Shown here: positions 20,849-47,119 of the stretch, piece after piece
Layout of the letters: each line of letters starts with the position of its first letter
Numbering within the stretch: position 1 is the stretch's first letter
Source: an uncultured Pseudomonadota bacterium
Lineage (GTDB): Bacteria; Pseudomonadota; Gammaproteobacteria; Burkholderiales; SG8-39
Assembly: GCA_903921325.1 (NCBI GenBank)
Contig: CAIXPL010000004.1
Location: 62,001 to 126,000 of the forward strand
Length of the DNA: 64,000 bases
Direction: 5' to 3'
Translations under genes and position numbers: made by a program
The notes under the pieces: model-generated
The model's database searches: none
What the model was told of the DNA's origin: nothing
The model's input: the letters and a program-made list of their open reading frames with translations, nothing else

Positions 20849-21649
20849 CTATTGCCGCCAGTCGATATAGCGGCCTGCGCGCACCATTTCCATACGTCGT
20901 ACGGCGCCCTCGAACACCAGGCGCGGCACCGTGCCCGCAGGATCGAACGCACTTGCATCCTTGCCTGACTGGCGGCGCACCGCCTCGTCAAGCACGGTGT
21001 CCCCGCCAGCCATCGAGGCAGCAGCCAGTTGCACCTCGCAGGCGCGCTGCAGCGTCCAGCAGCGAAAAAAGGCCTGCGGCAGCGTCTGCCCGGTGACCAG
21101 CAATCCGTGGTTGCGCAATATGAGCACATTGCTCTTGCCAAGACTCGACACAAGACGTTCGCGCTCGTCGCTGCGCACGGTGATGCCCTCAAAGTCGTGA
21201 TAGCTCACGTCGCCGTACAAGATCGCCCCATAGAAATCGTCATGGCGTAGCCCGCCGGCCTTGCAGGCCACTGCCATACCGGCTGTGGTGTGGGTATGCA
21301 TGACGCACTGGGCATCCGGGCGAGCGCCATGGATCGCCCCGTGAATGGCAAACGCGGCCGGATTGCCGCGCCAGGGGCTGTCATCGACATTGGCCCCGTG
21401 GATATCGACTTTGATGAGATTCGATGCGCAGACTTCGGCGTAATTAAGGCCAAACGGATTCACCAGATAATGATGTTCAGGGCCGGGTACGCGCAGTGAA
21501 ATATGGTTGAAGATCGCTTCGTGCCAGCCCAGATAATCAAAGACCTGATAACAGGCGGCCAATTCCAGCCGCAGCGCCCATTCCACCGGATCCATCGCGC
21601 GCGGCGGTTCGCTCGCGCGGCCTGGAAAGGCAAGTTCACTTGGAGTCAT
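20849..21649 (-). CDS. Class II aldolase/adducin family protein
   Basis: GWHEAIFNHISLRVPGPEHHYLVNPFGLNYAEVCASNLIKVD; VMHTHTTAGMAVA. Confidence 0.93.
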   Translation of the reverse strand: MTPSELAFPGRASEPPRAMDPVEWALRLELAACYQVFDYLGWHEAIFNHISLRVPGPEHHYLVNPFGLNYAEVCASNLIKVDIHGANVDDSPWRGNPAAFAIHGAIHGARPDAQCVMHTHTTAGMAVACKAGGLRHDDFYGAILYGDVSYHDFEGITVRSDERERLVSSLGKSNVLILRNHGLLVTGQTLPQAFFRCWTLQRACEVQLAAASMAGGDTVLDEAVRRQSGKDASAFDPAGTVPRLVFEGAVRRMEMVRAGRYIDWRQ

Positions 21650-21661
21650 CGGGGTATTCCT

Positions 21662-23299
21662 TCAATGATGGGTGGAGGGGCGCTCGCCAGGGTCGGCCAC
21701 CGCGACTGCGGCAAGCACACGCTGCAATTCGGTCTTCTGTACCTTGCCCATTGCATTTTTTGGCAGGCTATCCAGAAAGAACACCCGTCGCGGGTGCTTG
21801 AACCGGGCAATGCGCTCGTGAAACCGCGCCATCACCCCTGCCGCATCGAGCGTCGATCCGGACTGGCGTACGACCGCGGCGACCGCGACTTCTCCCCAGC
21901 GATCATCAGGCTGGCCCACGACCGCCGCCTCGATGATCTCCGGACAATCACTCAGAACATTTTCCAGTTCGGCCGGATAGATGTTCTCGCCGCCGCTGAT
22001 GATCATGTCCTTGGAGCGTCCGACAACATAGTAAAAACCCCGTTCGTCGACACGCGCCAGATCGCCGCTGTGAAACCAGCCGTCACGAAAGGATGGATTG
22101 TCGGAATCGGCCCAATACCCTTTCATCAGTGCGGGGCCACGCAGCCAGATCTCGCCGATTTCACCGGGCGCAACGTCGGCACCCTGGTCATCGACCAGCC
22201 GGACATCAACGTGAAGCCCGACCCGGCCGGTACTGCCCAGGGCGAGCAGGGCATCTTCACGTTTGAGATAGATCGAGACCGGACCGGTTTCGGTCGACCC
22301 GTACACCTGCGTCACCGGTACCCCGCGATCAAGAAAGGGGCGCATCAGGGCTTCGGGCACCGTTGAGGAGCCCGTATTGAGCATGCGCAGCGAGCTCAGG
22401 TCAGTCGAGAGCCAGTCCGGGTGACCAATCACCGCCTTCAGTGTGGCGGGCACCAGCAATGACAGAGTGGGGCGCACTTGCGCAACATCGTGCAGCCACG
22501 CCGCCGGATCAAAGCGCGCATGAACGCTCACCGTCGCCCCGGCGTGCAGGGCCGGCAGCGTCTGTATGCACAGGCCACCAACATGAAACATCGGCAGACT
22601 CGATAGCACATGATCGGCGCGGGTCAGATCGTGATAATCGATTGAATTGATCGCATTCCAGATCAACGCCTGCTGCGTATGCACCGCCCCCTTGGGGCGT
22701 CCGGTGGTGCCTGAGGTATAGACGATCAGCACCGGATCGTGATCGTCACCCGAAAACGGCAGCGCGGCGCGACGCAGAGCCTGCTCGGCGAGTGTCTCAG
22801 GGGCGGTGATGTCCTCCCAGCGCAGGACAGCCGCAGGGGCCGAGGGGTCTGCCGCATCCACGTTAGCGGCTGCATGCGCCGGCGTGTCCTCGGCGCCGGG
22901 TTGCGCGCCAACATCCATCAACACCGGCAGACAGGCTGTCGAGTGCGCCGTCAGTGCCATCGCCGTCTCATGAAACCCCGCCCCAGCGACCAGAATGCGC
23001 GATTGGGCGTGATCCAGAATCGACTGCAATTCCGGTCGCGCCAGACGGAAATTAAGGGGTATCAGTACAGCGCCGATCCGTGCCAGCGCAAACAGTAGAC
23101 ACAGCATCTCCGGATGGTTGTACCCAAGGTAGGCGACATGGTCGCCTCGCGACACACCAAGGCGATGCGCGAGCGCGCTGCTCACCAACTCGATGCGTTG
23201 CCACAACGCGCGATAGCTGATGCTGTTGCCCTCAAAGCGCAGTGCCGCCTGCTCGGGCTGAAACTGCGCGTGCCGCTCGATGATGCGCGACAGATTCAT
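21662..23299 (-). CDS. AMP-dependent acyl-CoA synthetase/ligase
   Basis: LIVYTSGTTGRPKGAVHTQ; GSTETGPVSIYLKRED; GENIYPAELENVL; KNAMGKVQKTEL. Confidence 0.95.
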   Translation of the reverse strand: MNLSRIIERHAQFQPEQAALRFEGNSISYRALWQRIELVSSALAHRLGVSRGDHVAYLGYNHPEMLCLLFALARIGAVLIPLNFRLARPELQSILDHAQSRILVAGAGFHETAMALTAHSTACLPVLMDVGAQPGAEDTPAHAAANVDAADPSAPAAVLRWEDITAPETLAEQALRRAALPFSGDDHDPVLIVYTSGTTGRPKGAVHTQQALIWNAINSIDYHDLTRADHVLSSLPMFHVGGLCIQTLPALHAGATVSVHARFDPAAWLHDVAQVRPTLSLLVPATLKAVIGHPDWLSTDLSSLRMLNTGSSTVPEALMRPFLDRGVPVTQVYGSTETGPVSIYLKREDALLALGSTGRVGLHVDVRLVDDQGADVAPGEIGEIWLRGPALMKGYWADSDNPSFRDGWFHSGDLARVDERGFYYVVGRSKDMIISGGENIYPAELENVLSDCPEIIEAAVVGQPDDRWGEVAVAAVVRQSGSTLDAAGVMARFHERIARFKHPRRVFFLDSLPKNAMGKVQKTELQRVLAAVAVADPGERPSTHH

Positions 23300-23391
23300 G
23301 GCCGCATGGGCGCTGCGCGCAATGCCACCTCAATCATCCTTGCCATTTCATCTGCCCGCTCAGACCCGATGTGGCCCCTGGTGCCCGCCGC

Positions 23392-23445
23392 GCCCTGCTC
23401 ACTGGTCTTGCCCTCCTCACGAGTCTTGCCGTGCTCACTGGGCTT
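23392..23445. repeat. Three tandem imperfect 18-bp repeats (GCCCTGCTCACTGGTCTT-like), intergenic
   Basis: gccctgctcactggtctt / gccctcctcacgagtctt / gccgtgctcactgggctt. Confidence 0.75.
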
Positions 23446-23448
23446 GAT

Positions 23449-25668
23449 TTACTCATCGGTCTCACCCGACTCATAGAGTGCTTCGCGTCCGAGTCGATCG
23501 AGACACAGTTCGGCTGTCCAGGGCAGCATGAGTGACCCGCAACGGCTGTCCCGATACAGCCGCTCGAGGGGCAAGGTCTTGAGCATGGATTGTCCGCCGC
23601 AGGTGCGGATTGCCAGACGGCAGATCTCGTTCGCGTTTTCCATCACCGTGTATTGCGTCGAATACAGTCGCAGACGGGCATCCTTGGGTGGATCGATACG
23701 CGCTTCATGGATCGTATGCAGAAACAAGGCGCGGGTCTGCTCAAGTTTTACCCGCATCTCCGCCACTGCAATCTGCTTGGTCGGATACATGCGCCGTTTG
23801 ACTGGCGGCATGCCCGCTACTTCGCCGCGCAGATACGCCACTGTGAAATCGTAGGCGGCCTGGGCAATGCCCATATACGTAGGCGACAAGGTCATGAACA
23901 TGTGAGGCCAGCGCGACGCGGCCTGAAAATACACGCCCGTGGGCATCAGTTGCTCAGTGTCGGCAACATAGACATTCTTGAATTCCAGATTGCGCGACAC
24001 CGTGCCGCGCATACCGAGAGGATCCCAATCGCCTGAAATGGTGACACCGCTTGCATCGGCTGGCACCGCGATGTACATGGTGTCGCGCATCGATGCGCCA
24101 GGCTTGTCTTCAGTACACAGCACACCGTAATAGTGGGCAGCACCAGAGAGTGAGGCGAAGATCTTGCGTCCGCTGATCAGCCAGCCACCCTCGGCGCGAG
24201 TGGCGAGTGTGCCAAAGGGCGCCTTACCCGCCGCCGCTGCGCTGCCCTCGGAGAACGGTTGCGCATAGATCGCGCCCTTGTCCACGACGCGCTCGTAGTG
24301 CAGCGCGCGACCATGGTTATGCTGGGCGCGCTGCGCCGCGGTCATCTCCAGATCATCGGCCAGTGGCCCGGACCACAACTGCGAGCAGGCGTGCATGTTG
24401 AAGGTGAGCGCGGTGGCACCGCAGTGCCGCCCGATGGTGGCCGCGACCATGCAATAGGTAGCGAAATCGGCGCCGTGACCGCCGTGCTCACGCGGCACAC
24501 ACAAGCGCAGCAGCCCGGAATCACGCAGATCGTCATAGTTCTCAAACGGGAAGGTCGCATCGCGGTCGTATTGCGCCGCGCGCCCGGCAAAACGGGTACG
24601 ACCCAACTCGTCGGCCAGCGCTATCAGCTGCGCCTGATCGGCACTCAGGGGATAACCCTCGCCGGTGATCGGTGGCGGGCTGTAGCGGCGCACCGGGCGG
24701 GTCGGTTTGGTTGCCGACGTTGCCGGTGCGGATGCTGACGAGCCCGCTGCCGCCGCACCGGGTGCCCCCGGCTTGCCTTCAGTCAACCCGCCGGATTGCG
24801 CAGCCTTTTGCACGGGCAGCGCCGGAAAATGCTGGCGCAGAAACGTGAGCACGCGCTCATCGAACCGCGCGGGTTGTTCCATGTGCGTGAGGTGCCCGGC
24901 ACCGGGCACACACAGGTATTGCGCACCGTTGACCTTATCGGCCATGCGGCTCATCACCGCCGGTGGTGCATTGCCATCGCGCTCACCGACGATGAGCAAG
25001 GTCGGCACGGCAATGCGGGCGAGCGCCGCGCGCTCATCGAAGCCCACCAGAGCCGCGAGCGAGCGGCGATACACATCAGGACTCACCCGCCCCATGGAAG
25101 CCTCGGCCAGGGCCACCCCGGCCGGGTCAGCATCCTCACCCAACATGGCGGCCACCAGACTGGCTGCCAACTCAGGCATGGTTTTACCGGCATCCAGCGG
25201 TGCCAGGCGCGCGGCCAGAAACTCGCGTTGCCAGTCACCCTCGGGTTTGCCAAAGGCGGGGCTCGTACCGTAGAGGACCAGCCCCTGCACGAGTCCGGGA
25301 TGAGCCGCCGCGAGCGACTGCGCCACCATACCGCCCATGCTGTGGCCGACCACTACGGTTTTTGGCGCACCCAGATGTTGAATCAATACGGCAGCCGATT
25401 CAGCCAGTGTCCGGATCGTATAGGGATCGATCGAAGCGCTCGCCCCGTATCCGGGCATGTCCCAGGCCACCACCCGGTAGCCGGCCGCGGCCAGTGACTT
25501 CATCTGCCAGGGCCAGACCGTGCGGTCACCACCGATACCGTGCAGGAGCAGGACTAGCGTATCGCCCGTGCCCTTTTCGGCATACGCTGGCAGTGCGCCG
25601 GGGGCCCCGCGTGCGGCACTGTGTGAGTCAGCGTTCGGGGGTGTGCCTGAATTTTGCGCATTGGTCAT
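23449..25668 (-). CDS. Two-domain fusion: N-terminal alpha/beta hydrolase + Ala/Pro/Ser/Thr linker + C-terminal acyl-CoA dehydrogenase
   Basis: VLLLHGIGGDRTVWPWQ, GHSMGGMVAQSLA, GERDGNAPP, GAGHLTHMEQ; then LCVPREHGGHGADFATYCMVAATIGRHCGATALTFNMHA ... YRDSRCGSLMLPWTAELCLDRLG; one continuous 739-aa frame. Confidence 0.92.
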   Translation of the reverse strand: MTNAQNSGTPPNADSHSAARGAPGALPAYAEKGTGDTLVLLLHGIGGDRTVWPWQMKSLAAAGYRVVAWDMPGYGASASIDPYTIRTLAESAAVLIQHLGAPKTVVVGHSMGGMVAQSLAAAHPGLVQGLVLYGTSPAFGKPEGDWQREFLAARLAPLDAGKTMPELAASLVAAMLGEDADPAGVALAEASMGRVSPDVYRRSLAALVGFDERAALARIAVPTLLIVGERDGNAPPAVMSRMADKVNGAQYLCVPGAGHLTHMEQPARFDERVLTFLRQHFPALPVQKAAQSGGLTEGKPGAPGAAAAGSSASAPATSATKPTRPVRRYSPPPITGEGYPLSADQAQLIALADELGRTRFAGRAAQYDRDATFPFENYDDLRDSGLLRLCVPREHGGHGADFATYCMVAATIGRHCGATALTFNMHACSQLWSGPLADDLEMTAAQRAQHNHGRALHYERVVDKGAIYAQPFSEGSAAAAGKAPFGTLATRAEGGWLISGRKIFASLSGAAHYYGVLCTEDKPGASMRDTMYIAVPADASGVTISGDWDPLGMRGTVSRNLEFKNVYVADTEQLMPTGVYFQAASRWPHMFMTLSPTYMGIAQAAYDFTVAYLRGEVAGMPPVKRRMYPTKQIAVAEMRVKLEQTRALFLHTIHEARIDPPKDARLRLYSTQYTVMENANEICRLAIRTCGGQSMLKTLPLERLYRDSRCGSLMLPWTAELCLDRLGREALYESGETDE

Positions 25669-25681
25669 GATCGATCACTCA

Positions 25682-26743
25682 TCAAGCGGGCTGCGGTGGC
25701 CTGACAGCGTCCACCAGTACCCCATTGTCCACTACGGCGACACCATCGAGGCTCACCGTGCAATGGCGCATCGGCAAGTCAAAATGCCCCAGGGTGTGTC
25801 GCCCCGCTACTTCGTTCGCACCCGTCGAATACAGAAAATTGCCGGCGAAGGCGCGCAACTCGGTGCCATTGAAATCACGCCGGTCATAGAAATTCATCGC
25901 ATCCCAGCGGGCGGCCGGATTCATGCCCCAGCCCACATGCGACACCGCATAGGCTGATCGATCGCCCCAGGCCGCGAAATAGCCGCGCATCAATTCGGCA
26001 TCAATGCCTTCGCCCGCGATGTCCACGACATGGTCATCGACGATGGTGAGTCGGACGGGGTCCTGGATATAGCGCTTGAAGGTGAGATTCACATCACCGG
26101 TATCGAGCACCAGAGTGCCGGCGACCGCACCCGCAGCTGGAAACGCGAGGCACAAACCACCTGGCCAATGCGCCACTGTGCCCGGGCGGGCGGTGTAGCC
26201 CCAAACGCCCCCTACCTGCGCGCCGGCAAGGCTGATCTGCAAGTCCGTCCCGGCGCGCGAACTCACGTGCATGCGGCTCGCCCCCCGCAACTGGCGCATG
26301 GCGGCACGCACGTTGGGCTCCAGCGCCGGATCTGGCATCAACCGTTCGAGTGCTTCAGGATGTTCATTGGAGATCATCAACAGGCGCGCGCCGCCCTTGA
26401 GGATGGCGGGCAGCTCGGGCGCGTGCAGCAAACCCTCAACGGTGAGATCGACCACCAGCACCGATTGCGACAACGCCGAGATCACTGGCACAAGTCCACC
26501 CAAGGCATCGCTTGCGCCGGTCGATCGGACCGGGGCTGGCGCGCTCAGGCGTGGCGAGGGCACAGTGATGAGAAACGGCCGGCAACCCAGGCGAAGCAGG
26601 GCCAGCTCAGCCAACTCCAGATTGATCTGACGCGACTGTGTCTCGGCGAGAATGGCCACGACATCGCCAGCAACTACGCCACAACGGCCAAACACCTCGG
26701 CAAAGCAGTCTATCCATTTGCCCTCGATCCGTTCGCGCAACAT
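25682..26743 (-). CDS. NicX-like (2,5-dihydroxypyridine 5,6-dioxygenase/leucyl aminopeptidase fold) protein, paralogue 1
   Basis: AVSHVGWGMNPAARWDAMNFYD; GHFDLPMRHCTVSLDGVAVVDNG; motifs match NicX iron-ligand regions as recalled. Confidence 0.75.
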   Translation of the reverse strand: MLRERIEGKWIDCFAEVFGRCGVVAGDVVAILAETQSRQINLELAELALLRLGCRPFLITVPSPRLSAPAPVRSTGASDALGGLVPVISALSQSVLVVDLTVEGLLHAPELPAILKGGARLLMISNEHPEALERLMPDPALEPNVRAAMRQLRGASRMHVSSRAGTDLQISLAGAQVGGVWGYTARPGTVAHWPGGLCLAFPAAGAVAGTLVLDTGDVNLTFKRYIQDPVRLTIVDDHVVDIAGEGIDAELMRGYFAAWGDRSAYAVSHVGWGMNPAARWDAMNFYDRRDFNGTELRAFAGNFLYSTGANEVAGRHTLGHFDLPMRHCTVSLDGVAVVDNGVLVDAVRPPQPA

Positions 26744-26950: not shown

Positions 26951-27835
26951 CTACTTTCTAACCCCCGGTGTCTCAATCGCGAGCCCCTGTGCACGCCAGG
27001 CCAGAAACAGTTCCAGATCAAGATATTCCGCGGCGCCGTAGGGCCACATTTCGGCACGCACACCCGACAGGCAACTGCGAAACCGTCGATGCAACGACCC
27101 GGCCTTTTGCCATTCAATGCGATAAATCGGATAGGCATTCGGTTGGCCCTGACTGATGGTCTCGGCCAGCAGCCGGCGCCCCCAGTTTTGCTCATGGCAG
27201 TTGTTGCACGCGAGATTCATCTGGCCCATGCGGCGGTAGTACAGCGCTTGCCCAGCTTCGAAATGCGCGCGTGCCGGCCCTTCGATCGACACCCCGATCG
27301 GCATGCCGCGCGACATCGAACCGACATAGGCCGCGATCGCGATTGCATCATCCGATTCCGCTGTGAACGCGGGTGCCCTCTGGTGCGTCACCCGGCAGGC
27401 GTCGATGCGCCCCGACAGATTGAGGAGCCGGGCAAGGGTCGTGTCAAATTGTGGGTAGTGCGCCGCCACCCCTGCCATGCTGCGCGTTGCCTCACCGTGA
27501 CACTGGGCGCACGCGATGTTCGCGCTGCCGGCCGGCGATGACCACAGCTGCGCACCACGGTCGAGCCACAGTTGCGCCGGGTTGGCGAAATCATCGGCTT
27601 GCATTGCCTTGATGGCAGGTGCCTGAAAGCTCAGCCCCGAGCGCAATGCATCCAGTCCGATCACCCGTTGCTGAGCAAGGGCGGGCGCAACCGATAGCAG
27701 CAGACCGGTAGTGATCAGCAGGGCGAGGCGCGTCATGACTGACCCGATCCCAGCGGCCGTCCGACGCGCGACTCGGGTAGACGCTGCCCGCACCTCATCG
27801 GGCGCACGCCGCGCTGCAACAAGTCTGTGGCTCAT
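26951..27835 (-). CDS. soxA: Sulfur oxidation diheme c-type cytochrome SoxA
   Basis: Two CXXCH sites (CAQCH, CNNCH); YRIEWQKAGSLHRRFRSCLSGVRAEMWPYGAAEYLDLELFLAWRAQGL, typical SoxA C-terminus with catalytic Cys. Confidence 0.92.
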   Translation of the reverse strand: MSHRLVAARRAPDEVRAASTRVARRTAAGIGSVMTRLALLITTGLLLSVAPALAQQRVIGLDALRSGLSFQAPAIKAMQADDFANPAQLWLDRGAQLWSSPAGSANIACAQCHGEATRSMAGVAAHYPQFDTTLARLLNLSGRIDACRVTHQRAPAFTAESDDAIAIAAYVGSMSRGMPIGVSIEGPARAHFEAGQALYYRRMGQMNLACNNCHEQNWGRRLLAETISQGQPNAYPIYRIEWQKAGSLHRRFRSCLSGVRAEMWPYGAAEYLDLELFLAWRAQGLAIETPGVRK

Positions 27836-28329
27836 CGCAGTGTCTCCAGATACCGCACCACATCTTCGATCCCTTGTGCATCGAGTACCGGATGTCCCGC
27901 AAAAGCCGCAGCCACGCGCACCCTGCCCTCAACCCGATAATAGGCGGGCATGATGGATTGCGGGTTGATACGGCTTGAGTCGACCACGCGCAGGCGCAGT
28001 TGCCCTGCGTTCAGCCGAGCGCCGACCTGATCCAGTGGGGGCCCGAGATCACCCATGGCCTGCGAATCGCCGCCTGGCACCTGGTGACAGAGCACGCAGT
28101 TGGCGGTCCGTGAGAACACGAGTGCGCGTCCGCGCGCCGCTTCACCAGACAATCCGCCCAGGGCCTCATTGATGGCGCCGGCTTCGACCCTGAAAGGCAA
28201 CAGATCGTCATCGGCCCGGCTAGCCGAGGCGGCGAACACCAAGACCAAGGCCAACGCCAATGAACACGCACGGGCGGACGAACACAAGGCGCTGCGCGCG
28301 ACGCGTGCGAACCGGGACAACATGCACAT
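27832..28329 (-). CDS. soxX: Sulfur oxidation c-type cytochrome SoxX
   Basis: NCVLCHQVPGGDSQAMGDLGPPLDQVGARL...INPQSIMPAYYRVEG...LDAQGIEDVVRYLETL; start refined. Confidence 0.92.
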   Translation of the reverse strand: MCMLSRFARVARSALCSSARACSLALALVLVFAASASRADDDLLPFRVEAGAINEALGGLSGEAARGRALVFSRTANCVLCHQVPGGDSQAMGDLGPPLDQVGARLNAGQLRLRVVDSSRINPQSIMPAYYRVEGRVRVAAAFAGHPVLDAQGIEDVVRYLETLR

Positions 28330-28355
28330 CCGCAGCGGCGGCGTCGGTTCGACGC

Positions 28356-29423
28356 CTATTCGACGTGCGCGCCCGAGGCCTTGATTGCACGTCCCCACTG
28401 ATCCATCTCCTTGGCAATGAAAGCGGCGAATTCCGCCGGGCTATTTCCCCTGGGCTCAAGCCCCTGCGCGGCCAGTGTCGTCTTTGCCTCGGGCGTGGCG
28501 AGCGAGCGCCGGATCGCGGCATTGAGCTTGTTGATCACCTCGGCCGGCGTGCCCGCCGGGGCCACGACACCGCTCCAGAATGAAATCTCGAATTGCGGCA
28601 AGCCGGCCTCAATCACGGTGGGCACCTCGGGATAGGCCGGGTTGCGCTCGCGCGATGTCACCACCAACGCCCGTAACTTTCCCGCGCGAATGTGCGGCCC
28701 AAGGTTGGCAAAACTCTCAAACACCATCTGCACCTGGCCTGCGAGCAGGTCAGCCACAGCCGGGCCGCCGCCCTTGTAGGGCACATGAACGATGTCGGTG
28801 TTGGTGATCATCTTGAACAATTCACCGGCCAGGTGCAGGGGGGTGCCACTGCCGGCCGACGCAAAATTGAGCTTGCCCGGATGCGCGCGGGCGAGGTCGA
28901 TCAGTTCACGCACACTGGTTGCCGGCACCGAGGGGTGGACCGCGAGCACCAGCGGACCGATCGATACCATGCTCACCGGCGCAAACGATGACCGCGGATC
29001 ATAGCCAAGCTTCGGGTACATCCCGGGTGCTATCCCCAGGGTGCTGGTGCTGCCATAGAGCAAAGTGTAGCCATCGGCGGGCGCGTTGGCGGCGGCCTCG
29101 GAACCGACTGTGCCACCCGCGCCGGGATGATTGTCGATCAGCACCTGTTGGCCAAGGGACTCGGCGAGTTTCTGCGCGACCAGCCGACCGACGATATCGG
29201 TTGGGCCACCCGGTGGGAAGGGCACCACCAGGCGCAAGGGATGGGTTGGATACGATTGAGCACAGACACCGGTGGCTACCAGCACCAGGCCGGCAGCACT
29301 GGTTGCGAGCAATTTCCGAACCAAACTTGGACTGAGGAAGCTGCGCGCCCCCCACAGTCTGATGACTTTAGTTTGACAGTTGTTCGACATTAGAGTGAAT
29401 GGGTATAGTGCACTGAATGACAT
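28356..29423 (-). CDS. Bug-family TTT substrate-binding protein
   Basis: YPTHPLRLVVPFPPGGPTDIVGRLVAQKLAESLGQQVLIDNHPGAGGTVGSE. Confidence 0.95.
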   Translation of the reverse strand: MSFSALYPFTLMSNNCQTKVIRLWGARSFLSPSLVRKLLATSAAGLVLVATGVCAQSYPTHPLRLVVPFPPGGPTDIVGRLVAQKLAESLGQQVLIDNHPGAGGTVGSEAAANAPADGYTLLYGSTSTLGIAPGMYPKLGYDPRSSFAPVSMVSIGPLVLAVHPSVPATSVRELIDLARAHPGKLNFASAGSGTPLHLAGELFKMITNTDIVHVPYKGGGPAVADLLAGQVQMVFESFANLGPHIRAGKLRALVVTSRERNPAYPEVPTVIEAGLPQFEISFWSGVVAPAGTPAEVINKLNAAIRRSLATPEAKTTLAAQGLEPRGNSPAEFAAFIAKEMDQWGRAIKASGAHVE

Positions 29424-32549: not shown

Positions 32550-33629
32550 ATGCTGCCCAGTCATTTTCAGTCGACCGAAATCAATCCTGCGCGCCTGGCC
32601 GGGCTGTTCCGCCAGGAGTTCGCGCTCTCGGCAGTCAAAAAGGGCGAGACTATCGCCGTGGTGTCTGATCTGGGCACCCGACGCGAGTATGTCGAGGCCT
32701 CGTTTGCCGCCGCTGATGAGCTCGGCGCTGACATCTACGAGATGTGCGTGAACTCGGTGCCGTCCTGGACCAAGGTCGGTGTGCCCACGATAGGCCAATG
32801 CAAGGGCACTCTGGAAGCCCTGTGCCAGGTTGACCTGATCGTGATTTTTCATGTGCCCCTCTTTGCCAGCTGGCTGCGCACCGTGATGCAAAAAGGCGTT
32901 CGCGTGCTGATGATCATCGACGCACCCGATGATCTCGATCAACTCATGTCCCCACCAGGTCTCAAGGAAGCACTCAAGTACGCCGACTCGGTCTATAGCG
33001 CAGCGCAACGGATACAGGTCACCAGCAAGGCGGGCACTGATTTCACCTACGAGCGCGGTGAATATCCGACCATGATCCAGTGGGGCTACGCCGATGAGCC
33101 CGGTCATTTCGATCACTGGGGCGGCGGGCATATTCACACCTTCCCCAACGAAGGCAGTGCTACCGGGACGGTCGTGTTCCAACCCGGTGACATCGTCATC
33201 CTGCCCTACTGCCGCTATGTGCAGGACCCGGTGCGAGTGACCTTGCGCGAAGGTCATGTGGTGGATATTCAGGGTGGGCTGGACGCCAAGCTGATGGCCG
33301 ACTGGCTGGCCGAAGGCAAAACCTCGGCGACCGATCAGGACCCGTACGCGGTATCCCACCTGGGATGGGGCATGAATCCGCAATCGCGCTGGAACTGGCT
33401 GGGCCTTACCAGCGGCAACCCCGAGCGCAATCGCGCCGCGGCGCGGGTATTTGCCGGCAACTTCCTCTTCAGCACTGGCCCCAACACGCAGGGCGGTGGC
33501 AAGCGCACCACCCGCGGGCATTACGATGTGCCGATGCGGGATTGCACCGTGACCTTGGATGGCAAGGTGGTCATCGAAGAAGGTCAAATCGTTGATGAGC
33601 GCATGCGGGTTGCCCGCGTACCGCGTTAG
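32550..33629 (+). CDS. NicX-like dioxygenase, paralogue 2
   Basis: VTSKAGTDFTYERGEYPTMIQWGYADEPGHFDHW; VSHLGWGMNPQSRWNWLGL; FLFSTGPNTQGGGKRTTRGHYDVPMRDCTVTLDGKVV; matches NicX motif order. Confidence 0.82.
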   Translation: MLPSHFQSTEINPARLAGLFRQEFALSAVKKGETIAVVSDLGTRREYVEASFAAADELGADIYEMCVNSVPSWTKVGVPTIGQCKGTLEALCQVDLIVIFHVPLFASWLRTVMQKGVRVLMIIDAPDDLDQLMSPPGLKEALKYADSVYSAAQRIQVTSKAGTDFTYERGEYPTMIQWGYADEPGHFDHWGGGHIHTFPNEGSATGTVVFQPGDIVILPYCRYVQDPVRVTLREGHVVDIQGGLDAKLMADWLAEGKTSATDQDPYAVSHLGWGMNPQSRWNWLGLTSGNPERNRAAARVFAGNFLFSTGPNTQGGGKRTTRGHYDVPMRDCTVTLDGKVVIEEGQIVDERMRVARVPR

Positions 33630-33652
33630 CAGCGCACGGCATACGCACAACA

Positions 33653-34687
33653 ATGAGTGCAACCTCGAATCGACCCGATGCCCAATTGATCGCGGCACTT
33701 GAAGCGGCCGACTATCACCCGCTGTGGACCCGCTACAAGCAGATCACCCCGATCAAGCCGGCCGCGAAGGACACACCACGGCTGTGGCCCTGGCGTGATT
33801 TCGCACCATTTGCCGAACGGGCGGCCAAGGAAGTGCCGATTGAGGACATCGAGCGGCGCGCGATCATTCTCACCCACCCAGCCTTTGGCGGTGCCACCAC
33901 CACCACGGCCAATCTGATCGCGGCCTTCACGATACTCGAACCGGGCGACCATGCCGTGCCGCATCGTCACACCACGGCGGCCATTCGCTTCGCAACCCAC
34001 GCCGAAGGCGCGGTCACCATCGTCAATGGCCGACGCTGCGAGATGCAGCCGGGCGATCTCGTGCTCACGCCGCCCATGTGCTGGCACGGTCACATCAATG
34101 AGGGAACGCGGCGCACCTACTGGTTCGATGCAGCCAACATCCCACTGATCTGCGGACTCGATGCCAATTTCTTTGAACCCGGCAGCCGCAGTGACGAGCA
34201 GTTCTGGAAGGTTGACGAAGGCGATGAGCGCCTGTACGCCGCAAGCGGCCTGCAAGTGGCAAGCGACGCTGTGCAACCAGCCCCGCTGCAGTCGGGAAAG
34301 TATCACTACCCGGGCGTGGCCACCCGCGCCATGCTCGATGCACTGCCACGCACAGCCGATGGCGAGCGATCGCTGCGCTATACCAACCCGCAGACCGGCG
34401 GCCCGGTGATGGCGACGCTAGACTGTCAGGCAACGCGCCTTGCCCGGGGTGCGGCTACCCGCGCGCGCCGCGCCACTCATAATGCGATTGCGTTGGTCGT
34501 CTCGGGCGAAGGATGTTCAACGGTCGGCGATCAGCGCTTCGAGTGGCAGCAGGATGATGTGTTCACCATCCCGCACTGGACCTGGGCGAGCCATCAGGCG
34601 CGCTCGCCCGAGGCCGACCTGTTCATCGTCTCCGACCGCCCGGTCTTTGAGGCCCTCGATCTGTTGCGCATCGAACGCGAGGCGTAG
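33653..34687 (+). CDS. Gentisate 1,2-dioxygenase-like bicupin
   Basis: LEPGDHAVPHRHTTAAIRFATHAEGAVTIVNGRRCEMQPGDLVLTPPMCWHGHINEG. Confidence 0.9.
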   Translation: MSATSNRPDAQLIAALEAADYHPLWTRYKQITPIKPAAKDTPRLWPWRDFAPFAERAAKEVPIEDIERRAIILTHPAFGGATTTTANLIAAFTILEPGDHAVPHRHTTAAIRFATHAEGAVTIVNGRRCEMQPGDLVLTPPMCWHGHINEGTRRTYWFDAANIPLICGLDANFFEPGSRSDEQFWKVDEGDERLYAASGLQVASDAVQPAPLQSGKYHYPGVATRAMLDALPRTADGERSLRYTNPQTGGPVMATLDCQATRLARGAATRARRATHNAIALVVSGEGCSTVGDQRFEWQQDDVFTIPHWTWASHQARSPEADLFIVSDRPVFEALDLLRIEREA

Positions 34688-34695
34688 CGGGCCTG

Positions 34696-36978
34696 TCAAC
34701 GATTGCGGCGCAATGCCTGCAACTGATCGCGTCCGGCCAGATACTGATTGGGCCAAGCCACGTCAGTGACACCCGCATCAGCCGCGGCATGCAGCGTGAA
34801 ATAGGGGTCAGCCAGATGGGGACGTGCCAGCGCGCACAAGTCGGCGCGGCCTGATGCAATCAGGGTATTGACCTGATCGGCCGTGGTGATGGCCCCGACC
34901 GCCATCGTGGCAATACCGGCCTCGAGGCGGATCTGCTCGGAGAACACGGCCTGGTACATGCGGCCATAGACCGGGCTTGAGGCCGGATCGGTCTGCCCGG
35001 TGGACACATCAACCAGATCGCACCCGTGCGATTTCAGGAGCCGGGCAATCTGCACCGAATCCTCGCCGGTCAATCCACCGGGTATCCAATCGGTTGCCGA
35101 CAATCGCACCGCCATCGGGCGATCAGCGGGCCACAGCGCGCGGCACGCATCGAATACCTCAAGCGGATAGCGCAGGCGGTTCTCCAGCGTCCCACCATAC
35201 TCATCGGTGCGCTGGTTGGTAATCGGCGAGATGAAGCTGCCCAGCAGATAACCGTGTGCCATGTGCACTTCCAGCATGTCAAAGCCGGCCTCGATCGCCA
35301 TCCGCGTCGCACGCTCGTACTGGCCACGCACCTCATCCATATCGCCGCGTGTCATCGCGTGCGGGGTCTGCGAGGTAGCGCTGAAATACGGGATGGGCGA
35401 GGGGGCGAGCAGCGGCCAGTTGCCCGCGGGCAAAGGCTCATCAATGGCCTCCCAAGCCAGTTGGGTTGAGCCTTTGCGTCCGGCGTGTCCCAATTGCAGA
35501 CAGATCTTCGCCGCGCTCTGACCGTGCACAAAATCAACGATCCGCCGCCAGGCGGTCACGTGCGCCGGGTCATACATGCCGGCGCAGCCTGGGGTGATGC
35601 GTGCCTCGGGTGCCACGCAGGTCATCTCGGTGTAGAGCAGTCCGGCACCGCCAATCGCCCGCGAGCCATAGTGGACCAGATGCCAGTCGCCCGGTGTGCC
35701 ATCAACGGCCGAGTACTGGCACATCGGCGACACCACCACCCGATTGGCAAGGTGCATCCGGCGCAAGTGAAACGGCGTGAACAGCGGCGGGCGATTGGTG
35801 AGCGCGGTTGACTCCTCCACCGCGACTTTTTGATTCCACCACTGTTCGACTTCGGCAACCACTTTGGGGTCGCGCAGGCGCAGGTTCTCCCAGGTGATCT
35901 GCTTGGAGCGTGACAGCAAGGAGAAATTGAACTGCACCGGATCCATCTTCCAGAAGCGAGCCACGTTCTCGAACCAGACCAGGCTCGTTTGTGCGGCATG
36001 CTGGATTTTTTCCACTTCCGGTCGCCGTGCCTGTTCATAGGCGGCCAGCGCCGCCGGGATATTGCCGGGCGAAGCGATGACCGATTTGTGCAGCGCGATC
36101 ACATCCTCAAGGGCCAGTTTGGTGCCCGACCCGATTGAATAATGCGCGGTGTGGGCGGCATCACCTACCAGCACCGTGTTCTCATGGCTCCAGTGGTCGC
36201 AATGAATATTCGGAAAATTGCGCCAATACGAGCGGTTGGTCAGCACCGGGTGGCCGTGCAACTCGTCAGAAAATAACTTTTCGCAGTACCGCGCTGTGGC
36301 CTGCTCATCTTCGATGGTCAAGCCCGATTTGCGAAACGCTTCATCGGTGGTCTCAAGGATGACCGTACACTGACCGCGCGTGAACTGGTACGCGTGGATG
36401 GCCCAGATACCACACTCGTTTTCCTTGAAGGCAAAGGTGAACCCCGGCAACGGTGTCTGTGCACCGAGCCAGCAGAACTTGTTCGGACGCAGACTGATGG
36501 TCGGTTTGAAGTGGGCCTTCCACGCCTCACGCACCGGACTGTTCACGCCATCCGAGGCGAGCACCAGATCGGCGTCACGATGGGTCTCGATACCCGCATC
36601 ACGGGTCTGGTAGCGAATCTCGACGCCCAGACTGCTCGCGCGGCGCTGCAAAATCTGCAGCAGGGTAAGGCGCTGCAATCCTGAGAAACCGTGCCCCGAG
36701 GAGCGCAGCACATGGCCCTTGTAGTGCGTATAGATATCGTCCCAGTAGGCGAAGTTGGCCGCCACCTCGGCGTGGGTCTGTTCATCTGCCTCACGCAGAT
36801 TGCCCAGCGTTTCATCGGACAGGACGATGCCAAAGCCGAACGTGTCATCAGGCCGGTTCTGCTCGAACACGGTGATCTGCGCATCCGGCATGGACTTGCG
36901 CATCAGGATCGAAAAGAACAGTCCGGCCGGACCACCGCCGATCACATCAACTTTCATGATTCCCCCTGACCTGACCAC
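34696..36978 (-). CDS. Bifunctional salicylyl-CoA 5-hydroxylase-like FAD monooxygenase fused to OYE-family oxidoreductase
   Basis: N-terminal [21 protein letters not shown]...[25 protein letters not shown]-terminal [43 protein letters not shown]...[14 protein letters not shown]. Confidence 0.9.
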
Positions 36979-45835: not shown

Positions 45836-47119
45836 TCAGGCAGGAACGCGGATCCCGGCGTGCCGCAGCAGTGCAATCACCGCATCACGACTCACCCCTT
45901 CGGTGATGAACACCACCGTCGAACCAGGCTCGGCGGGGATGTCTGAAGCGGCGCCCGCCCATGGTTCGATGCGATAGACCCTGTCGCCTGCCACTTGCAA
46001 AACGCCATACCCGTCACCTGCCTGTACGATTCCTTTGACGCGCAGTATCTGGCCCGGGAAGCGATCAAGCAGATTCTGCAAAGCCGCCTCGAGAGGGCCT
46101 TTCGCGACCGGCTCTGCCATGCGCAGGCTGAACGTGGCGATGGACCGATGCGAAAACGCCCGACCCGGGCTGACCGGACCGATGGGGCGTGCGACGAATC
46201 CAGGGCTTGACCGTTCCGTGCTCGACTGTTCCGTGCTCGACTGTTCCGTGCTCGACTGTTCCGTGCTCGACCGTTCCGTGCTCGACCGTTCAGTGCTTGA
46301 CCGTTCAGTGCTTGACCGTTCAGTGCTTGACCGTTCAGTGCTCGTCCGTTCAGTGTTCGATGGGTCAGTGTTCGATGGGTCAGTGTTCGATAGGTCAGGG
46401 GTCTGGCGTTCCGGGCGTGCTGATTCCACGCCGAAGCGGGACACGCTGGTAGTTGACGTGCGAGCGCCCGTGGGCCATTGCACCACCGAGGAAGCATCGG
46501 TAAACCATTCAGCAAAAGGCGCGTCATCGGCCGAACGCGCCATGATGCGTGCTGCAGGGTTCGACTGCTGCAACCGGTCTCTGAGTGCCTCAATGACCGA
46601 GCCTGCTACCAGATCACTCTTGGTAATCACCAGTTGGTCAGCCAGCGCAATCTGCGCGCGCGACTCGGGATGCCGGTCCAGCTGGGCAAGGCCCTGACTG
46701 GCATCGACCGTACACAGGATATTGCTCAGTCGATAGCGCTCGGCGACTATTCCGGGGGCACTCAAGGTCGCAACCAAGGGCATCGGATTGGCGATGCCTG
46801 TGGTCTCGATCACCACCCGATCAAAGCGCGCAATGCGACGCTCAAGGCGCGCCCAGTAGAGGTCCTCCAGCGCAGCGTTCAGATCCCCGCGCACCGTGCA
46901 ACAAACGCATCCGCCTGCCAGCAGCGTGGGGCTCACCAGCGCCATGGGCATCAGTTGCTGATCGATGCCGATCTCACCCAGCTCATTGATGAGGATTGCT
47001 GTATCGACCAGCACGCCCGCCTGCAAGGCTCGCGCCAGCAAGGTGGTTTTGCCGCTGCCGAGAAACCCGGTCAGCAGACTGATGGGGATGGGCGAGGTCG
47101 CAGGTGTATTCAGCGCCAA
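45836..47119 (-). CDS. CobW/P47K-family GTPase (metal chaperone-like) with repeat-expanded insert
   Basis: PISLLTGFLGSGKTTLLARAL; GGCVCCTVRGDLNAAL; C-terminal CobW_C-like RILRVKGIVQ; insert (SSTER/SSTEQ)n. Confidence 0.92.
   Translation of the reverse strand: MALNTPATSPIPISLLTGFLGSGKTTLLARALQAGVLVDTAILINELGEIGIDQQLMPMALVSPTLLAGGCVCCTVRGDLNAALEDLYWARLERRIARFDRVVIETTGIANPMPLVATLSAPGIVAERYRLSNILCTVDASQGLAQLDRHPESRAQIALADQLVITKSDLVAGSVIEALRDRLQQSNPAARIMARSADDAPFAEWFTDASSVVQWPTGARTSTTSVSRFGVESARPERQTPDLSNTDPSNTDPSNTERTSTERSSTERSSTERSSTERSSTERSSTEQSSTEQSSTEQSSTERSSPGFVARPIGPVSPGRAFSHRSIATFSLRMAEPVAKGPLEAALQNLLDRFPGQILRVKGIVQAGDGYGVLQVAGDRVYRIEPWAGAASDIPAEPGSTVVFITEGVSRDAVIALLRHAGIRVPA
46211..46404. 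repeat. 15-bp minisatellite, 12 complete units plus a decayed 13th, in frame inside the CobW-like gene
   Basis: Units ccgttccgtgctcga / ctgttccgtgctcga / ccgttcagtgcttga / tgggtcagtgttcga etc. Confidence 0.97.

Follow-up and report, generated by a model that had tools for sequence, protein, structure and literature searches.

A conserved gene module around a NicX-fold dioxygenase, predicted to act on a non-nicotinate aromatic ring

In a 64,000-nucleotide stretch of DNA from an uncultured Burkholderiales bacterium (contig CAIXPL010000004.1, positions 62,001 to 126,000; hereafter the window), four same-strand, tightly spaced genes encode nicX1, a relative of the pyridine-opening dioxygenase NicX, an alpha/beta hydrolase fused to a protein with the acyl-CoA dehydrogenase (ACAD) fold, an AMP-dependent coenzyme A (CoA) ligase and a class II aldolase. 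We report that the gene order NicX-hydrolase-ACAD-ligase is a conserved module found far beyond the source genome, and on balance we favour the interpretation that its products hydroxylate, open and hydrolyse a non-nicotinate aromatic ring, with CoA activation. The initial annotation of the window had placed the four genes between positions 26743 and 20849 and had named these families; PDB and Pfam matches agree with the family calls, and the gaps between the four open reading frames (ORFs), from nicX1 to the aldolase gene, are 13, 149 and 12 bp.

Conservation and variants of the module

An 11-sequence NicX1 alignment scanned against 85,462 species genomes returned at least 593 candidate stretches, at least 563 of which were confirmed. 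Neighbourhoods were analyzed in the best 80 non-duplicate loci among these, and gene order was counted by tblastn in the 65 non-duplicate loci with enough downstream sequence. NicX, hydrolase, ACAD-fold protein and ligase followed each other in exactly this order on one strand in 45 of the 65, with a partial partner set in 16 and NicX alone in 4; according to record titles, carriers include Burkholderiales, Alphaproteobacteria, Pseudomonadales and Acidimicrobiia. Cultured strains of Polaromonas (among them Polaromonas sp. AET17H-212) and of Cupriavidus gilardii have close nicX1 orthologues. The same three partners were the most recurrent neighbours of NicX1 in the best 80 loci, followed by a flavin reductase (PF01613) and a MarR regulator, which were encoded at most about 4.5 kb from NicX in 23 and 21, respectively, of the 74 loci with upstream sequence. 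Since the order recurs so far outside the source genome, we conclude that it is a genuine conserved module, beyond chance. Like the initial annotation, we read the cluster as catabolic in type. The gene-neighbourhood search proposed there does not bear out the aldolase, an orthologue of which adjoins the module only in the genus of the window (genomes G001 and G002); we rejected it as a core member. Flanking genes were considered as a substrate clue and set aside, being in most loci seemingly unrelated chromosomal genes.

The hydrolase and the ACAD-fold protein share a single open frame in the window, joined by an Ala/Ser/Pro/Thr-rich linker. This fusion, already remarked on in the initial annotation, is present here but is not a general feature of the module: the two halves are split by a TGA in G001, form separate overlapping ORFs in G002 and are two genes in nearly all relatives, L071 being the sole other locus with an open in-frame junction. 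The fusion would appear to be a recent or local event, although an assembly artefact is conceivable, the source being a draft genome of 38 contigs. Promoter and terminator scans found sites in numbers no higher than in shuffled sequence, and co-transcription of the module genes is for this reason unproven.

Variant arrangements were also encountered. Two rhizobial plasmids (Aminobacter pAA02 and Ensifer p1) carry a version with a TetR regulator and an APC permease, in which a NicX1 relative of 54% identity is accompanied by an ACAD-fold protein, a hydrolase and a flavin reductase; a glutamine-synthetase-like gene is present and a CoA ligase is not annotated. These plasmid relatives were considered as a pointer to the substrate and set aside, as they indicate no single one. 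At L172 9867-13027 (G000:C21), near Rieske oxygenase genes, the source genome holds a third NicX besides nicX1 and the paralogue nicX2 described below. This protein is 58% identical to nicX1, and its gene precedes those of an FAD-monooxygenase-like protein and an alpha/beta hydrolase; a similar trio occurs in another genome (G142), the FAD-monooxygenase-like assignments having been made by eye. The logic common to these variants would be hydroxylase, NicX and hydrolase.

Active sites of the encoded enzymes

An AlphaFold model of nicX1, built with 15 sequences (predicted local distance difference test, pLDDT, 86), matches the NicX structure 7cn3 with a template-modelling (TM) score of 0.88 (E 3.4e-37), placing the protein in the NicX fold family. 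In NicX the iron is bound by His265, Ser302, His318 and Asp320, and the substrate is contacted by Leu104, His105, Glu177 and His189, Glu177 making contact with both O1 and the nitrogen of the ring (PMC7910607). Both nicX1 and nicX2 have equivalents of the four Fe(II) ligands, as do 77-79 of 79 module members, and those of His105 and His189 are retained in nearly all module members, nicX1 included. Glu177, by comparison, is retained in none of 78 members, which carry Val (41; the residue of nicX1 is likewise Val, Val180), Gly (31), Ser (4), Asn (1) or Ile (1) at this position. Glu308 is also retained in no module member, but both residues are present in three NicX proteins encoded by annotated nic clusters. 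In the paralogue nicX2, position 177 is Gln and position 105 is Phe; because Phe105 also occurs in two of the three nic-cluster proteins, position 105 alone is not diagnostic. Neither nicX1 nor nicX2 therefore carries the Glu177 expected of a 2,5-dihydroxypyridine-specific NicX. In a tree that comes with a long-branch warning, the module proteins form a clade apart from both nic-cluster NicX and nicX2. The replacement of Glu177 suggests, at the level of sequence, that the target is other than the known pyridine.

The nicotinate pathway itself was rejected on residue 177 and on the missing nic partners, in agreement with the initial annotation: the window cluster has no NicE (maleate isomerase), NicF (amidase), NicC or molybdenum hydroxylase, nor do these recur across module loci, all four being present in the nic cluster of L187. 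The accompanying statement that the window holds no other nic genes stands for NicE, NicF and the molybdenum hydroxylase beside the cluster but had missed nicX2. A nicotinate-like route for another pyridine or azine survives better, and we consider it possible yet doubtful. In such a route the monooxygenase would yield a dihydroxy-N-heterocycle, ring opening by nicX1 would give an N-formyl amide, and the hydrolase would then remove the formyl group, on the pattern of NicC, NicX and NicD. The succession of hydroxylase, NicX, hydrolase and MarR regulator is that of genuine nic clusters, the two histidines at 105 and 189 are conserved in nicX1, and a 66% relative of nicX2 in genome G207 (locus L139) adjoins a xanthine-dehydrogenase-type molybdenum hydroxylase, CoxG and an amidase. 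However, the residue that touches the ring nitrogen is replaced in every module member, neither NicE, NicF nor the molybdenum hydroxylase recurs in the module, the NicE-type racemases encoded elsewhere in the genome are only about 30% identical, and the nic pathway has no role for a CoA ligase. The hydrolase, whose triad Ser110-Asp231-His259 is invariant in 48 of 48 orthologues, is likewise just a remote relative of the L187 nic-cluster hydrolase (29 bits), and no close kinship with NicD was found.

For the ACAD-fold protein we compared two positions, MCAD-type and IVD-type, which are the known sites of the catalytic base in acyl-CoA dehydrogenases. Pro and Phe, and no Glu, occupy both positions in 58 of 58 orthologues; two ordinary ACADs served as controls, and each carries a Glu, one encoded in the window at the first or second of these positions and one from locus L124 at the other. 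The fold alone is not decisive, because sequence and fold searches return both dehydrogenases and ACAD-fold monooxygenases: the model reaches TM scores of 0.74-0.79 to members of both groups, dehydrogenases rank highest in the fold search, and the PDB entries nearest to the protein in both searches include the flavin-containing monooxygenase 5z8t. Given that the base Glu is absent throughout and a flavin reductase is often nearby, the protein is probably a two-component flavin hydroxylase.

This bears on the scheme of the initial annotation, in which the ring would be opened first, the ligase would activate the product, and a genuine acyl-CoA dehydrogenase would then oxidise the CoA-bound compound much as in beta-oxidation. 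The Pfam ACAD domains, the CoA ligase adjacent in most loci and the dehydrogenases at the top of the fold search all fit such a scheme. Against it stand the Phe and Pro at the base positions, the frequency of the flavin reductase in the operon and the rhizobial relatives, which combine NicX, ACAD-fold protein, hydrolase and flavin reductase with no annotated CoA ligase. We consider the dehydrogenase step unlikely and give the scheme as a whole a low probability. A reading of nicX1 as an M29 peptidase, with the cluster outside aromatic catabolism, is hardly credible and was rejected. RefSeq does label relatives, including the 54% plasmid relatives, as 'peptidase M29' or 'leucyl aminopeptidase', and in the fold search M29 aminopeptidases come next after NicX. 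They reach TM scores of just 0.54-0.62, however; the NicX-type His/Ser/His/Asp iron ligands are conserved, and the neighbouring module genes encode a flavoprotein, a hydrolase and an aryl/acyl ligase.

Proposed pathway and link to salicylyl-CoA 5-hydroxylase

In the favoured order of reactions, the ACAD-fold flavin monooxygenase, supplied with reduced flavin by a separate reductase, would first hydroxylate the aromatic ring. The resulting 1,4-dioxygenated (para-diol) ring would be opened by the NicX-type Fe(II) dioxygenase and the fission product hydrolysed by the Ser-Asp-His alpha/beta hydrolase. The AMP-dependent ligase would act either before these steps, converting the aromatic acid to its CoA thioester, or after them, doing so with the opened acid; its match to feruloyl-CoA synthetase 8wev fits an aryl acid as substrate and is no proof of it. 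More tentatively, the module proteins may be a second NicX-fold clade whose substrates are carbocyclic (benzenoid) 1,4-dioxygenated rings, opened perhaps in the form of aryl-CoA thioesters made by way of a salicylyl-CoA-type 5-hydroxylase, in a widespread and so far unrecognised aerobic aromatic pathway.

The 5-hydroxylase enters the argument through its distribution. Among 250 genomes of the order, with NicX1 called at 65% identity or more and the 5-hydroxylase at the NF006101 cut-off, the latter is encoded in 10 of 10 genomes with NicX1 and in 22 of 240 others (Fisher p=3e-10, uncorrected for relatedness). In five of the ten the two genes are no more than about 8 kb apart, and in a sixth about 15 kb. 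Loci L053, L060, L061, L072 and L124 also have it close to the module, of which L060, L061 and L072 are apparently the same contigs as those of genomes G170, G207 and G087. The copies of those lineages and of the window genus form a subtype 64-78% identical to the window copy, distinct from the type found in anthranilate clusters (about 49-57%). The apparent tie between the module and salicylyl-CoA 5-hydroxylase in this Burkholderiales lineage is the chief clue to the substrate, for which the most economical guess is accordingly an ortho-hydroxy- or ortho-amino-benzoate-type acid.

Several observations weigh against the hydroxylation and ring-opening pathway that we favour. The cluster in the window's genus contains no flavin reductase, and no orthologue of the module reductase was found in the source genome at E 1e-10, where four general PF01613 proteins encoded elsewhere are the only candidates to act in trans. 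The model of the ACAD-fold protein is about equally near dehydrogenases and monooxygenases. Opening of a para-diol has no precedent in the NicX family, the Pseudomonas putida enzyme being reported not to open benzenoid rings such as hydroquinones and catechols (PMC7910607). The 5-hydroxylase gene is on another contig in four of the ten genomes, in three or four of these within a separate anthranilate-type cluster, and alphaproteobacterial module loci have none nearby; for the latter reason it is not a fixed part of the module. Sequence, structure models and gene context are the basis of the pathway as a whole.

Features of the window are collected below.

Table. Genes of the cluster and of its surroundings in the window
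Feature	Coordinates	Strand	Evidence
nicX1, NicX-family Fe(II) ring-cleavage dioxygenase (predicted), non-nicotinate clade	25682..26743	-	353 aa; phmmer to 7cn3 E=1.6e-55; AlphaFold model TM 0.88
Hydrolase-ACAD fusion ORF	23449-25668	-	739 aa, single open frame; Abhydrolase_1 and all three Acyl-CoA_dh domains
Alpha/beta hydrolase half of fusion, about residues 1-285	24814..25668	-	Abhydrolase_1 6.7e-31; triad Ser110-Asp231-His259
ACAD-fold half of fusion, about residues 326-739, putative two-component flavin monooxygenase	23449..24693	-	Acyl-CoA_dh domains
AMP-dependent acyl/aryl-CoA ligase	21662..23299	-	545 aa; AMP-binding 1.8e-84; best PDB match feruloyl-CoA synthetase 8wev
Class II aldolase/adducin-type enzyme, genus-level add-on	20849..21649	-	266 aa; PF00596 Aldolase_II, NF005451 over cut-off
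SoxA cytochrome c, operon membership uncertain	26951..27835	-	TIGR04484 224.8 bits, cut-off 110
SoxX cytochrome c, operon membership uncertain	27832..28398	-	TIGR04485 74.5 bits, cut-off 61
TctC-type substrate-binding protein, operon membership uncertain	28356..29423	-	PF03401 1.8e-75
nicX2, second NicX paralogue	32550..33629	+	phmmer to 7cn3 E=2.7e-63; 38-39% identical to nicX1
Cupin dioxygenase, gentisate/5-aminosalicylate dioxygenase-like	33653..34687	+	TIGR02272 226 bits, below equivalog cut-off 442
Bifunctional salicylyl-CoA 5-hydroxylase/oxidoreductase	34696..36978	-	NF006101 1119.7 bits, equivalog cut-off 1078

The genes for nicX2 and the 5-hydroxylase lie about 6-8 kb from the four-gene cluster, nicX2 and the cupin gene (32550-34687, +) being convergent with the 5-hydroxylase gene, and the block from the aldolase through the 5-hydroxylase is retained whole in both same-genus genomes. 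The operon may be longer than the four genes, because nicX1 is immediately preceded on its own strand by the SoxA, SoxX and TctC genes, which end 207 bp before it and are kept in G001 and G002. No further sox genes were identified around the soxA/soxX pair (26951-28398, -), which sits between the TctC gene and nicX1; SoxY-like genes are found on other contigs, and soxA/soxX-like genes also lie a few kb upstream of the module in locus L085. Farther along the window, positions 42244-63237 are rich in catabolic genes, with three Rieske oxygenase genes, an ACAD gene, several TctC genes and a hydroxycinnamoyl-CoA hydratase/lyase-type enzyme scoring over its cut-off. A CobW-like GTPase gene (45836-47119) contains a 15-bp tandem repeat of about 13 copies (46201-46398) that encodes a Ser-Thr-Glu-rich stretch.

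Significance and comparison with known systems

We found no description of the cluster in the literature searched, so that its novelty, as presumed in the initial annotation, holds to that extent; the main text of the paper on the auxin iad genes names no such genes. At least 563 loci of the species-genome collection encode a relative of nicX1, and RefSeq names the plasmid relatives as peptidases. Should the proposal be correct, aerobic aromatic catabolism would have an extra ring-opening route, hidden in databases under peptidase and acyl-CoA dehydrogenase annotations. The NicX fold would then not be confined to pyridines, a benzenoid substrate being a novelty for it, and loss of Glu177 with a retained iron site would be the signature separating the two kinds of NicX.

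Among described systems, the module may be set first beside the nic core of Pseudomonas putida (NicC-NicX-NicD with NicR). Both combine a flavin hydroxylase (here predicted), a NicX-fold dioxygenase with the same iron ligands, an alpha/beta hydrolase and a MarR regulator. They differ in that the nic hydroxylase is a class A FAD enzyme, whereas that predicted for the module has the ACAD fold and would use a separate reductase; the module also lacks Glu177, Glu308, NicE, NicF and the molybdenum hydroxylase, adds a CoA ligase and has a NicX of a separate clade. With the sdg and abm pathways (salicylyl-CoA 5-hydroxylase and 2-aminobenzoyl-CoA monooxygenase-reductase) it shares an aryl-CoA ligase together with a nearby bifunctional 5-hydroxylase of the same kind, and at L124 an anthranilate-type cluster (5-hydroxylase, short-chain dehydrogenase/reductase, enoyl-CoA hydratase, ACAD and benzoate-CoA-type ligase) directly adjoins it. 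Most module copies, however, have no 5-hydroxylase nearby, and to our knowledge the described sdg and abm pathways include neither a NicX-like dioxygenase nor an ACAD-fold monooxygenase. The ACAD-fold two-component monooxygenases DszC, HsaA, KijD3 and 5z8t/5gj7 resemble the module protein in fold, in the absence of the ACAD Glu and, at the 23 of 74 loci that have one but not in the window cluster, in a neighbouring PF01613 flavin reductase, but are only about 20-29% identical to it, and oxygenation by the module protein is a prediction. The M29 aminopeptidases AmpT and PepS, finally, share a distant fold with NicX, whereas nicX1 reaches a TM score of at most 0.62 to them and its metal-site residues are the NicX set.

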